Assembly (NCBI RefSeq): GCF_036373705.1
Contig: NC_089863.1
Span: forward strand, 6,361,357 to 6,425,356
Length of the DNA stretch: 64,000 bases
Source of the DNA: Amia ocellicauda
Lineage: Eukaryota > Chordata > Actinopteri > Amiiformes > Amiidae
Direction of reading: 5' to 3'
Below the pieces are notes generated by a model that was given only the letters and a program-made list of their open reading frames with translations, was not told where the DNA came from and made no database searches. Shown in pieces: positions 41,480 through 48,712 of this stretch. The translations under genes and the position numbers were made by a program. Position 1 is the first letter of the stretch. Each line of letters opens with the position of its first letter.

Positions 41480-43340
41480 TGATAATTTGTGTCAAACTAC
41501 ATACATATGCACAAATACATTTCCCGGTATTTTATTTAGACTCAAATGATCGCCCATGGAAGACTGCATATGAATAATCACAGACAGACACAGACACACA
41601 GCTGTATTGTCTTCCAACGCAACAGCAAACAGCTGGAATCGGCGAAGGACACTGGCTGCCTTGTTATAACAATGCGGAGTCTCGGTAGGACAGTCGGGTT
41701 TGTTGCTGTTGAGTTATTTGACCTCAGTAGAGATTTAACGGTCTGTCTTTTCCCTGTGTGGCAGTGGAGATAAATCCTCAGCATCAGATCTGTCCGTACC
41801 CAACTTGTAATCTTTTTCACACCGAGGATCGTGTTCTACTATGTAATGTAGCGTTGGCTACTTCTAGCTGCCAACTGTGAAAATGTGGATAAGATAAGAG
41901 ACTGTTTCAGGGGGCAGTATAATGAAAGTACAGTGCTGTACTGTTAATTATGCCGAATTAAGCATACAATAAAGTTATATTGTAGAAAGAGGACATTATA
42001 AAAAAGTTGTTCACCCAGGAACTTCATCGCTCGGCCAAAGATTTCAGTTCCCATGAAGCTGTAGAAAGTCCACTGGTAAGAAAACAACTCTGCAGGTAGT
42101 TCCAACTGAACGGGACGAAGAAATGTTCAGCATCCCCTGAATATTATATAAGGACTTGGCTTAAATGCTTGTCGATTTGCACAAACTATACACACCACTG
42201 TGTATTCTGTTTTTGTTTCAAGCCGTTTTATAATAATGTCGTACTTAGCAAAGCTGCAATGTGTGAGCTTAATGCTCTGCTCTCACAATCCGATTTTATT
42301 TTCAAAGCCAGTTTCATTTTAATTTTCTGACCGGATCATATTCCTGTTGGAGGCAGTGCGAGTCATTAACCCACCCGCAGTGCATGAAATCAACAAAACC
42401 CTGCAGATTTTGAACCATTCAGTTAAAATACTTTCATGGGGGGTATAGTGTTGTTGTAAATAATTCCTGGGAAAGTAATTTCAGTCAATCAGGTTTATTT
42501 AAAAATACAATACAAAAAGATACCCGTCATACATCTGGTTAGGACCACAGAAGCCCATTGATTTCCTGATTACAAGCAGTTATATTGTCCACCAAAAGAG
42601 GGTGCTATACAGTCCTCTCTTCCTATTGAAGCAAGCAGTGACACAAAAGCAAAAACAGCCAAAAATAAAGATACACCGTTTTACACAGTCTGGGAAAATT
42701 CCATAACTTGTCTTAAACTAGACACTTTTATCTCCTCCCAATAAGTAGAGTTGTAGGAGCACCTGGTTTCGAGGTCTTGTTCTCAACAAATTTGGTGGGC
42801 TCTTAGTTTTACTTGGAAGTAACAAATGTTCACAAGATAATGAACAAAAGGCCAGTGTACTTCTTGCACATAGATATAATTAATATCACAAACCGAATAA
42901 AAGCAATGATTATACGTATTCAGAAAAGCATTGATCATTCATATTAAAAAGCAATGGTAAACATATTAAAGAAAAGCGCTGGTCATTCATATTAACCCCA
43001 CAGTTTGAAGGGGTTAACTATTCCTCCAGGGGTTTAATGCTCTTGATGGCGTTGCCCTGCAGTACAGCATGGACAGAGACAGGCAGCTGCTCCACAATGT
43101 TGTCCTCAGTCATTTCAGCTCCAAAGATCGTGACCAGCAGGTCTGTGGGTGCAGTGATGGTCTGGATTGTGGCATCAGAGTCAGCCATCAGGGTGACCTG
43201 GTGCTTGTTGAACTCCTGCAGCCCCATCAGCTTCAGAGTCTTCTCCTGCTGAGGGGCACAGGACTTCTGCACACACAAACACATACTGATTAATACTCAC
43301 ACAGAAGCACACACACACACCGATCAATACTCACTCACTT

Positions 43341-43371
<31 letters not shown>

Positions 43372-44097
43372 AATGGTCAAGACACTCTGACATCTCTGGG
43401 GGTCCACAGCATACCTCTGAGCGCAGGACAACAAACTTGCTGTGCCAACTGACCTGTCCAGTTCTATTCAAACACTCTAACAAGCTCAGAGAGGGATGAT
43501 ATCACTGTGATGAGCTCATATGCTGCAAGCCCCGAAACACACATGTGTATGGCGGTCACATAGCGATCTTACCTCAACTTTAGTCCTGGCTGTGGAGCTG
43601 AGGGAGATTTCAGAATTGTACTCTGTCACGCGCAGGTGTGACACACTGACACAGTCTCCTTTAGACATGCAGGTTTTGGACAGCTCCCTCCAGAGACACA
43701 CGTTCACACTGCCGGTCTCATCCTGCAGCCTGACAGTGCAGATGTCGGTCTTCTTCCTCTTGACTTTGACGATCTCCCGGAGAGGATCCTGGGAAGAGAG
43801 CACAGGCCACTGCCAAACAATATCCTCCATCCCACTCAGAACAAAGCTTATCAAAGCATGGGGGGAATTAGTGACAAAATCAAACTAACAGTTTCATTTT
43901 ACTTCTATTAGAATTTGGACATCAATCCTTCACCATATTCTTGACAAGTGGGTGAGTGCATGTGTGGGACACCAAGAGAACGGGACAGGCCTGACTGCTG
44001 GACCCCTACAGTGAGGAGGTCTGGAGGCTCTGTTATGCTGTGGGGGGCATTTTCCTGGCATGGTTTAGGTCCACTTGTCCCCTTAGAGGCAAGGGTT
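41480..44097. repeat. Segmental duplication copy B
   Basis: Counterpart of 36060-40560 without the solo-LTR-like insertion. Identity with copy A varies. It is roughly 93% on the left. It is nearly perfect across about 43205-43845, where I find one substitution (GAAGAT/GACGAT) in the exonic and intronic sequence compared. It falls again to the right. It ends inside a Tc1 fragment. Confidence 0.85.
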
Positions 44098-46432: not shown

Positions 46433-46683
46433 CACACACATACATACATACACACACGTATATACACATTATGATTTACTGTCACATAACAACAATAACA
46501 CAAGTAATATTAATCACGCAACACATGCGCTGTAAAATGGTACAGATTCAGGTAGACCACATGCAGGTTTAGAGTGGCCCATTTAACATCTGCTAGACAG
46601 GGACATTTCTCCTCTGACTGTCGCGTCTCGATTCTACTTACCGGTACAGCACGTGTTAATACGAAATAGTTATTATTATTATT

Positions 46684-46732
<49 letters not shown>

Positions 46733-48712
46733 CTGTTGAACAACTTCACCATCTTAATAAACAGAAAATGATACTTTCTGCATGTGTTTGCATTGCTTTC
46801 CAATTTATTAAAATGCAAACAAACATTATTATTAATTTTATACAAATGATATCAGTCTAAATTAGCCTGCTGATCGAGTTTAGCCCGGCGACGACAGCGG
46901 GGCGGAACGTGTGCGCTTGCGCATTAAAGTATCTCTTGCTTATGTTGGTTATTGTGTGTCAGTTCACTCTCCTCCATGTCTGTCTGAGTTTCTGATGCAC
47001 ATTTCTTGCCGCATCCGGCACCTGTGGAATAACCGGGAAGAACGCAAAGCGTCCTAATGATTAAAAATATTGCCGTAAAGAGTGGGATTTGCGACACCAC
47101 GATATTAACGATAGAGCATAATATGAAACGATAGACGTTTTTCTATCATCATAAATGCCCTAAATGCATCAAATGATTTTGACATACAATTAACCATCTA
47201 TACAGCTGTGTTTTCACTGCAGCAATCCAGGTTGAGGACCTCAAAGGCACATTAGCAGTGTCCACCCCCTGGCACTGAACCCTTGACCCTCCACTCAGGA
47301 GTCCAGAGCCCTGACAACTACCACGCACTACTTGGACTACTTGCTCTTGAAAAGTCTAGGTTAATTTCTTCTTACCAATTCTTTCTGCTTCCAGTTTCCG
47401 TGATGATTGGAGGCTTCACCTACAGGAGAAACAAAGCCAGGGATACAACAAATTCACTTTCAGACAAGAACGAATTGCAGACTCACACTGGGACAGCCTG
47501 TACCCTGCCAGAGACTGAGATCTCTCCTTCTCTCTGTGCACAAGCACAGAACCCAACCTACAGCTCACACTACTCACACACCTCACCCCCACCCACATTG
47601 ATCCCAATGGGACTTGAGCACATGTATGACATAAAATAGCGCTGTCATGGGTTGTATGACTAATCATGACACTACAGTGGATAACTATAACGAGAGAGCA
47701 GCCAATGTAGACAGAGAAAGTTCTGACCCTGGGTTGATGTGGCGTCTTCCTGGCAGGGGTCTTGGTTTTCATCCTGGTACTTCGCTTTGGCTCGGGTTTC
47801 TGATCCAGCTTGCTTTTTCTCTGCAACAGTGAGGGAGGAGAATCCAAAAGAGACGGACTCTTTTGAGAGATTTACTGCAGACAGGGTCAATATACTGTGG
47901 AACTATAGTTTTCCCATAGAGGTATTTGCTATAAAATGCATATACAACACCACAGAAAACATTATACCGAGTACAATGGTGTCAACATTGCTACTGGATT
48001 GCAAGTGCTGAAAAGTGTTTTTGCAGAAGTCATAGCTTTAGTGTAGTATGTCGTGCAGTATCAGTAGTTACAGTGTGTATATTTTGTATTGCTGTACTCA
48101 ACCTGCTGTACCTGACTTTGAATTTTCATCTCTTGACTTGCTCCTCTGTCTCTTCTTTCCTGAAATGATACACAGATCACAAATGTTACAATGTAGACAG
48201 ACCTACATCTGACCAGTCCCTGCACTGCTGTCTGGACTATCTGGTCTATCTTGTGCTCTGAGCATAAGCTTATCAGTCGAGCTATTCCACAAATATAAAA
48301 AATCATTAAACATGTTACTAATTAAAACATAAGTTAATTAGGTAAGAAAAGACTACAGGGTGGACCCAGCTGGAGAACTGGGTGACACTGGGAGTTCACA
48401 GGGGCGGCTGACAAACCGGCAATGTTGTCTTTCTGACTGGTCTTCAGGATGAAGGGCTCCAGCAGTTGCAGCATCCTTGGGTCATTCCTGGGTATTTTGG
48501 CCATGATTACTTGGACAGTCTTGATTGAATTCTCCAGGCCGAGGTGACACAGGATGATCTGGGGCAGGTCCTGCTTCAAGGCTTTATCCTTCACCCCCTG
48601 AGGGATCTTATCCAGCAGGGAAAGCATCTTCTTGTATTCCTCCCTTCTCAGCTCATCTATAATATTATACAGAGCCTGGCGCCAGGCACTCTCTGCCTTC
48701 TCAGCAGACATC
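43018..48712 (-). CDS. PYD plus HIN-200-like (AIM2/IFI16-like) protein
   Basis: Nine exons join in consistent phase: 48712-48417 (ATG 48711; donor GTTTGT is weak, so this boundary is provisional), 48159-48112, 47820-47728, 47419-47376, 45982-45941, 45721-45317, 43788-43573, 43453-43415, 43266-43018. Total 476 aa. Residues about 8-90 are a pyrin domain: LRREEYKKM, then [30 protein letters not shown] and [12 protein letters not shown] follow the PYD helix pattern. A Lys/Arg-rich linker ([18 protein letters not shown]) may be nuclear-localising. The 405-nt exon is OB-fold-like ([48 protein letters not shown]). The 216-nt exon is a second OB fold ([29 protein letters not shown]). Order and motifs match the two OB folds of HIN-200, a DNA-binding domain. 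The last ~95 aa are unrecognised. By analogy it would sense nucleic acid and recruit a PYD adaptor; this is inference. A replication-protein-A-type OB origin is the alternative. Confidence 0.65.
44098..44784. other. Intron sequence, right of duplication copy B
   Basis: Part of the intron between the first and second OB-fold exons. No coding signal was found. Confidence 0.5.
44785..45130 (+). pseudogene. Tc1/mariner transposase fragments within the PYD/HIN-like intron
   Basis: Plus-strand decoding gives [19 protein letters not shown] and [10 protein letters not shown] (first catalytic Asp) at 44805-44930. It then jumps to C-terminal residues ([25 protein letters not shown]) at 44955-45125. 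The central part is missing; that part is found at 43930-44097 and 40385-40830, suggesting one Tc1 copy was split and shared by the duplication. Confidence 0.75.
46163..47160. mobile_element. Non-autonomous DNA transposon-like block
   Basis: Begins AGGGCTGGGCGATATGAC, a frequent fish DNA-transposon end, and finishes in CGATAGACGTTTTTCTATC...ATGCCCT, which could be the decayed right end. It contains AT/CA microsatellite (46410-46445) and a (TTA)n(TAA)n tract (46668-46733). No transposase frame. It sits in an intron of the PYD/HIN-like gene. Confidence 0.4.
46668..46733. repeat. (TTA)n/(TAA)n inverted trinucleotide tract
   Basis: TTATTATTATTATTAATAATAATAA is self-complementary around its centre. 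Frames reading I or N runs are artefacts. Confidence 0.9.

Follow-up and report, generated by a model that had tools for sequence, protein, structure and literature searches.

A Predicted PYD-HIN Gene in the Ray-Finned Fish Amia ocellicauda, with a HIN Domain Probably Shared with Mammals

Introduction

A 64,000-nucleotide stretch of the Amia ocellicauda genome (contig NC_089863.1; hereafter the window) raises the question of whether a protein joining a pyrin domain (PYD) to a HIN domain, the architecture of the DNA sensor AIM2, exists outside mammals. Cridland 2012 finds no PYHIN outside mammals, a 2026 paper, which compared >150 species including fishes, places the PYHIN origin in therians, and a review describes AIM2 as absent in teleosts. 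The first-pass annotation of this DNA had likewise described the family as mammal-restricted, in agreement with the first two sources, and had proposed a PYHIN-like gene here. Judged from its sequence, the fish protein most likely represents a non-mammalian nucleic-acid sensor of the PYD-HIN type. The favored explanation, which we regard as probable with some reserve, is that a ray-finned fish whose lineage did not pass through the teleost genome duplication carries an intact PYD-HIN gene, with a HIN domain shared with mammals and a predicted AIM2-like action. The absence of that duplication is inferred because four Hox13 genes are found in this genome.

Structure of the Predicted Gene

The predicted gene, modeled from genomic sequence alone, lies on the minus strand between window positions 48711 and 43018. 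Its eight coding exons have GT-AG borders throughout and agreeing phases, and together they form a single unbroken frame of 469 aa from the ATG at 48711 to the stop at 43018. The first-pass annotation had given this span and strand, these borders and phases, a Lys/Arg-rich linker, and a 216-nt exon, which is present in phase 0 on both sides with a large exon before it; its nine exons and 476 aa, however, become eight and 469 on recounting. The large exon, reported there as 405 nt, has two legal in-frame versions, so that the version starting at base 45721 (405 nt) stands beside an equally in-frame version starting at base 45739 (423 nt). The exons, including tandem copies of the last two, are as follows.

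Coding exon 1, 48417..48711, minus strand: pyrin domain, 98 codons plus one base, starting at ATG 48711; Pfam PYRIN score 14.5 bits (under the cut-off); 36-51% identical to eight further PYD exons
Coding exon 2, 48112..48159, minus strand: basic linker (KKRQRSKSR...); GT-AG, continuous frame
Coding exon 3, 47728..47820, minus strand: linker; GT-AG, continuous frame; alternative acceptors possible nearby
Coding exon 4, 47376..47419, minus strand: linker; GT-AG, continuous frame
Coding exon 5, 45941..45982, minus strand: linker; GT-AG, continuous frame
Coding exon 6, 45317..45739, minus strand: 423 nt (405 nt if the start is 45721); HIN OB fold 1, inter-OB link and first strand of OB2, a strand division inferred from alignment; 29.5 bits to Pfam HIN by itself, over profile positions 6-97
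Coding exon 7, 43573..43788, minus strand: OB fold 2, encoded in 216 nt with phase 0 at either end
Coding exon 8, 43018..43266, minus strand: C-terminal 82 aa; stop TAG
Exon 7', 40039..40254, minus strand: tandem copy of exon 7, identical at 215 of 216 nt; splice sites intact
Exon 8', 39490..39732, minus strand: tandem repeat of exon 8 with 6 nt fewer; reading frame and stop preserved

A splice acceptor AG adjoins base 48712, directly before the ATG, and an extra non-coding 5' exon is therefore likely. At the other end, exon 8' is a possible alternative 3' end of the gene, while the 82 aa of exon 8 match no Pfam family over any cut-off. The 1.4-kb intron at 45983-47375, inside the linker region, carries simple repeats. 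The window holds 407 open frames of at least 55 aa, a few of which were scanned with Pfam.

The HIN Domain

The Pfam HIN profile matches the spliced product at 33.2 bits (E 5.3e-8) against a gathering score of 22.7, and HIN is the sole family over its cut-off among the six listed for this product. Exon 6, which encodes OB1, exceeds the gathering score by itself (E 7.3e-7), while every non-HIN Pfam family does no better than E 0.07 on OB1. In a profile search of the genome this locus is the best HIN match among those listed (28.1 bits, E 8.5e-4), and of the two matches listed, drawn from the best candidates scored, it alone exceeds the cut-off. A profile built from seven solved mammalian HINs scores 27.4 bits against the product, where the best of 5000 shuffles reaches 11.5; in another comparison it scores 29.0 bits, with 8.9 for the best shuffle and −1.0 for human RPA70 A/B as a control. 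Its alignment is collinear through OB1, the inter-OB link, and OB2, and hhalign assigns it 92% probability over 170 columns, compared with 0.2% for RPA70 A/B. When this profile is run against the PDB, all 18 listed chains are HINs and other OB proteins are absent up to E 10. Judged by sequence, the product has the two OB folds of about 200 aa that make up a HIN, and the HIN-200-like OB pair proposed at first pass is borne out by a curated profile, in collinear order and in OB1 specifically. The HIN pair of Amia ocellicauda and that of mammals probably go back to one ancestral HIN.

A comparison of the fish gene with mammalian PYHIN (AIM2, IFI16, MNDA, PYHIN1) shows a common plan: both have a basic linker and a two-OB HIN with an inter-OB link, and both pass the Pfam HIN cut-off. 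The HIN region of the fish gene is coded by two exons (6 and 7), as is mammalian HIN in PMC3458909, and the PYD is the first coding exon, as it is in AIM2. Unlike mammalian PYHIN, the fish gene has an 82-aa C-terminal exon after the HIN and no CADM match on its chromosome. Identity to mammalian HINs is low, at 27-38 of 173-175 aligned columns (15-22%), and the AIM2 DNA contacts and the MFHATVAT motif are mostly lost. Mammalian MFHATVAT reads MFFVALAD at the same place, with three of eight residues kept. Only K160 is retained among 14 AIM2 HIN DNA-contact positions, and the placement of the link in the alignment is uncertain. One of the six contacts named in PMC4926060 is kept. The earlier statement that the HIN binds DNA is accordingly weaker than it implied. 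The ligand and contact surface of the fish HIN may differ from those of AIM2, since most of these contacts have changed in a domain that is still basic (pI 8.9); by analogy with RPA-type OB folds, a single-stranded nucleic acid is a real option. Structure models of single exons are not usable as fold evidence, either for exon 6 (pLDDT 34) or for exon 1, which is modeled as six helices (pLDDT 51).

The Pyrin Domain and Genomic Context

Exon 1 by itself falls below the Pfam PYRIN cut-off of 22.9 bits, but it is identified as a pyrin domain because of its kinship to PYD exons of the same chromosome (C20), the closest of which is 51% identical. All nine of these exons, exon 1 included, match PYRIN at E values up to 1, the best being 4.3e-14. 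The N-terminal PYD of the first-pass annotation therefore stands on this kinship. The nearest solved domains to the fish PYD family are those of NLRP3, NLRP4, and NLRP10. NLRPs carry NACHT and LRR domains and differ from the fish protein in having no HIN.

The surroundings of the gene were compared with the place of PYHIN between SPTA1 and CADM3 in human 1q23. Matches assigned to PEA15, COPA, and VANGL2, which are 1q23 genes in humans, lie on C20 at 5.9-6.4 Mb from the PYD-HIN gene, while the best matches to CADM, DUSP23, ETV3, and USF in the genome search fall outside C20. An ASC candidate is found on C18, with a PYD at 27783639 upstream of a CARD at 27780667 on the same strand, about 2.7 kb apart, the domain order of ASC. 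Mammalian contamination was rejected in view of the 36-Mb contig, the gene's own adjoining tandem copy, and the membership of its PYD in a local family. A search of viral contigs with exon 6 confirmed no relative.

Alternative Explanations

Three other readings of the locus bear on different parts of the architecture. The OB pair could be HIN-like simply because both are OB folds, a PYD having been joined to an RPA/SSB-like pair, so that the whole resemblance would be convergent. OB2 alone does resemble archaeal RPA at least as well as HIN: a single-sequence PDB search with 213 aa places archaeal RPA first (8.5e-5) and AIM2 fourth (0.02), the best four of 11 NCBIfam matches are RPA/SSB models, all on OB2, with E values (8e-8 to 1e-6) close to that of HIN, and an archaeal RPA profile outscores the HIN profile at 31.0-31.9, with 96.3% in hhalign over OB2 only. 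Archaeal RPA/SSB OB folds (PDB 3e0e, 2k5v, 3dm3, 1o7i) share with OB2 the pattern [14 protein letters not shown]...KGDCVSV. The loss of AIM2 contacts points the same way. The RPA/SSB match of the whole pair, however, is confined to OB2; these proteins do not match OB1 and have no PYD, while OB1 matches HIN, the match passes through OB1, link, and OB2 in order, and the HIN profile retrieves no RPA, SSB, or other OB protein from the PDB and, unlike with the fish pair, does not match RPA70 A/B. Moreover, the RPA resemblance of OB2 is not by itself evidence against HIN, since a generic OB model also picks up two of the seven mammalian HINs. The sequence comparisons favor HIN for OB1 and the collinear pair, but leave archaeal RPA at least equal for OB2 alone, and full convergence is unlikely. 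Still more improbable is that the PYD and OB exons are transcribed separately or that the locus is a decaying pseudogene. The reliance of the model on genomic sequence, the repeat-bearing linker intron, and the duplication of exons 7 and 8 would allow it; all eight exons, however, are open, in phase, and bordered by GT-AG, an acceptor directly precedes the ATG, and the exon 7-8 copy is likewise intact.

The remaining reading accepts an old HIN common with mammals and places the convergence in the architecture, with the PYD joined separately in the fish from the C20 exon family, or swapped for one of its members. In the PYD tree exon 1 falls within a starred clade of C20 PYD exons (99/97), no over-cut-off HIN lies near the other C20 PYD exons among the matches listed, and a grouping of exon 1 with AIM2 and MNDA and nothing else fails the AU test (p-AU 4.8e-5). 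The fish PYD family profile also finds NLRP PYDs in the PDB (6e-7 to 4e-6) ahead of AIM2 (0.027). Grouping the whole C20 family with AIM2 and MNDA, however, withstands testing (p 0.205), and an old PYHIN PYD could thus be the source from which the C20 PYDs were copied; the tree is built from short PYDs with long branches present. Separate joining is a serious contender that we hold to be possible rather than probable. The corresponding reading of common descent is plausible, though our confidence in it stays below even: the whole PYD-HIN sensor would have arisen before ray-finned fish and land vertebrates diverged about 430 million years ago, disappeared from teleosts, amphibians, reptiles, and monotremes within the reach of published searches, and persisted in this fish.

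Significance

Under the favored explanation of an intact PYD-HIN sensor, the protein would act much as AIM2 does. Its OB pair would bind nucleic acid and crowd molecules along it, the clustered PYDs would seed a filament to which ASC is recruited, and caspase activation would then start.

The locus suggests either a far greater age for the PYD-HIN protein type than has been assumed or two separate assemblies of it. A protein with both domains, in a fish outside the teleost duplication, dates HIN to the early bony vertebrates or else means that an OB pair was wired to the inflammasome twice. Either reading makes the origin of the DNA inflammasome testable, in a living lineage that may keep an ancestral or alternative mode of nucleic-acid binding. 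If the sensor predates the split from land vertebrates, AIM2-type DNA inflammasomes were not an invention of mammals.

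Gene Structure and Domain Architecture

The candidate PYD-HIN gene, which resembles AIM2 and its relatives, is encoded on the minus strand by eight coding exons. GT-AG borders and agreeing phases hold throughout, as the first-pass annotation had proposed. The nine exons and 476 aa counted there give way to eight and 469 aa in the splice model, with one stop, at the end.

48711-43018, minus strand: PYD-HIN gene (exon 1, PYD; exons 2-5, linker)
45317-45739, minus strand: exon 6 (OB1, inter-OB link and start of OB2)
43573-43788, minus strand: exon 7 (216 nt, OB2)
43018-43266, minus strand: exon 8

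By sequence, the product consists of a PYD, a basic linker, a HIN pair and an additional 82-aa exon. A splice acceptor immediately precedes the ATG, which suggests a non-coding exon 5' of coding exon 1. Alternative splice sites at some linker exons yield listed models of 467-474 aa and make the linker the least certain portion of the gene model.

Against Pfam-A, the spliced product matches HIN (PF02760, gathering score 22.7) at 33.2 bits (E 5.3e-8, residues 193-362), the sole family above cut-off among the six listed; the generic OB model PF01336 falls below its own (25.8 bits vs 27). Exon 6 alone reaches 29.5 bits for HIN (E 7.3e-7), with the sole other family listed at E 0.073, while exon 7 alone stays under the cut-off at 12.2 bits and matches OB models at E 6e-5 to 8e-3. 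Searches covered the 988-Mb assembly of 385 contigs, in which the window lies at C20:6361357-6425356. Two HIN matches are listed: exon 6, which alone exceeds the cut-off (28.1 bits, E 8.5e-4), and a 16.9-bit match on contig C2 with two stops inside. The exon 6-7 protein finds three places among the matches listed: exon 6, exon 7 and a tandem copy of exon 7.

HIN Domain or RPA-Like OB Folds

The tandem OB folds had been annotated as HIN-200-like, a reading to be weighed against kinship with RPA/SSB proteins. A profile of seven mammalian HINs whose structures have been solved (IFI16 HIN-A/-B, p204 HIN-A/-B, MNDA, human AIM2 and mouse AIM2) scores the fish sequence at 27.4 bits vs 11.5 for the top shuffle (5000 shuffles, 4466 rows reported). 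A second run gives 29.0 vs 8.9, with human RPA70 A/B at −1.0, and both parts score by themselves: OB1 plus link at 14.2 vs 8.7 and OB2 at 18.6 vs 10.9. Aligned by hhalign, the fish sequence matches the HIN profile at 92.4% across 170 columns, in order, and RPA70 A/B at 0.2%. The same profile, run on 177635 distinct PDB sequences, returns 18 matches to E 10, all 18 HIN proteins; together with the shuffle and RPA70 controls, this shows that general OB similarity does not yield such scores.

The pull towards RPA/SSB lies in OB2. In NCBIfam, 11 models match, every one of them RPA/SSB and on that part (top four E 8e-8 to 1e-6), and an archaeal RPA profile, built from three sequences, scores the fish sequence at 31.0-31.9 bits and reaches 96.3% by hhalign across 66 OB2 columns. 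The generic OB model also picks up two of the seven mammalian HINs, so this resemblance is a common OB signal that is stronger in the fish protein. A single-sequence PDB search also speaks against HIN: it is led by three archaeal RPA/RFA chains (8.5e-5 to 9.5e-4), with AIM2 fourth at 0.02.

Residue conservation is low. The fish sequence is identical to mammalian HINs in 27-38 of 173-175 columns, and MFHATVAT of mammalian PYHIN proteins reads MFFVALAD. The fish domain is nevertheless basic, with a pI of 8.94 (mammalian set 8.80-9.80). Of 14 AIM2 DNA-contact positions, six of which are named in PMC4926060, it retains one.

The Pyrin Domain

The N-terminal PYD of the earlier reading finds its support in the family and not in exon 1 alone, which scores 14.5 bits for Pfam PYRIN, under the cut-off. 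Exon 1 has 11 matches in the genome, itself and 10 further places on C20 (E 8e-22 to 0.004), and the PYD exon family sits on this contig. The alignment takes in 8/10 other members, leaving out L036 (no alignment by local tblastn) and L037 (partial); 9/9 aligned members match PYRIN, the top one at 4.3e-14. The family profile finds NLRP PYDs at 6e-7 and the AIM2 PYD at 0.027, with archaeal aIF2-beta, which has no PYD, ranking between them at 0.0075. PYD and CARD exon clusters also occur on C20, at 8.07-8.15 Mb and again at 5.39-5.88 Mb.

A tree built on 24 PYDs (exon 1, eight C20 relatives, ten other fish and five human PYDs; loci L015 and L016 omitted), with long branches and short rows, places exon 1 inside the C20 family (99/97). 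The AU test on this tree rejects grouping exon 1 with just AIM2 and MNDA (p-AU 4.8e-5); it does not reject joining the whole C20 family to AIM2 and MNDA (p-AU 0.205) or to NLRP3 (p-AU 0.161). A six-frame scan of a set of loci (~3.2 kb each, one 7 kb) gives no HIN-like match reaching E 0.5 apart from the PYD-HIN gene.

Genomic Setting

Other features of the window are as follows.

18197-18331: U8 snoRNA
18895-23467: three tRNA genes
25335-25826: flavin monooxygenase (FMO-like) exon, Pfam 57.5 bits
32151-32813: Sleeping-Beauty-type Tc1 transposase frame (Pfam)
59462-62316, plus strand: open frames with no Pfam match

The last are related (40% over 179 aa, 30% over 86 aa) to a 468-aa frame with neither a Pfam nor a PDB match, at L038:653-2056 on C20, ~1.8 kb downstream of PYD exon L029. 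The interferon-response-like motif GAAANNGAAA occurs 15 times window-wide vs 3.7 expected (0/100 shuffles as high), with an overlapping pair at 54419-54434, 5.7 kb upstream of the PYD-HIN ATG.

Four Hox13-class matches on C10, C7, C3 and C22 (identity 80-94%, next best 60%) indicate that the genome has four Hox clusters and lacks the teleost duplication. Synteny with the human PYHIN region is suggestive at best. The gene lies at 6.41 Mb of C20, which also carries matches assigned to PEA15 (12.29 Mb), COPA (12.72) and VANGL2 (12.76), all genes of human 1q23, where the PYHIN cluster also resides. C6 has a VANGL match of comparable identity, taken as VANGL1 because COPA adjoins the C20 copy. Best matches of CADM lie off C20 (C1, C24, C3), those of DUSP23 and USF on C1, and that of ETV3 on C18, with a weaker ETS match on C20 at 14.27 Mb.

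Distribution and Proposed Mechanism

PYHIN proteins had been described as mammal-restricted, and two papers bear this out: TBLASTN and PSI-BLAST found no HIN outside mammals, with none in chicken, frog, anole or zebrafish (PMC3458909), and a comparison of >150 species, fishes included, places the origin in therians (PMC13253634). Others describe teleosts as lacking AIM2 (PMC9978379), DDX41 as the only one of the cytosolic DNA sensors named to be identified in teleosts at that date (PMC4588145), HIN as unique to PYHIN, and the PYD as the first coding exon of AIM2 (both PMC4764838). The matches listed in open-licence literature hold no report of a fish or other non-mammalian PYHIN, which does not prove absence in print.

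By analogy with AIM2 and IFI16, the OB pair would hold nucleic acid and the PYDs would build filaments and recruit ASC. On C18, a PYD exon and a CARD exon on the same strand, ~2.7 kb apart, look like ASC. Exons 7-8 have a recent tandem duplicate at 39490-40254, which is intact and whose intron 7 is identical to the original in 306/306 bases. Since exons 7-8 and their copies are in phase 0 throughout, the gene may use alternative 3' ends or encode a protein in which OB2 is repeated. Because the AIM2 contact residues are changed, the choice of ligand may differ from that of AIM2.
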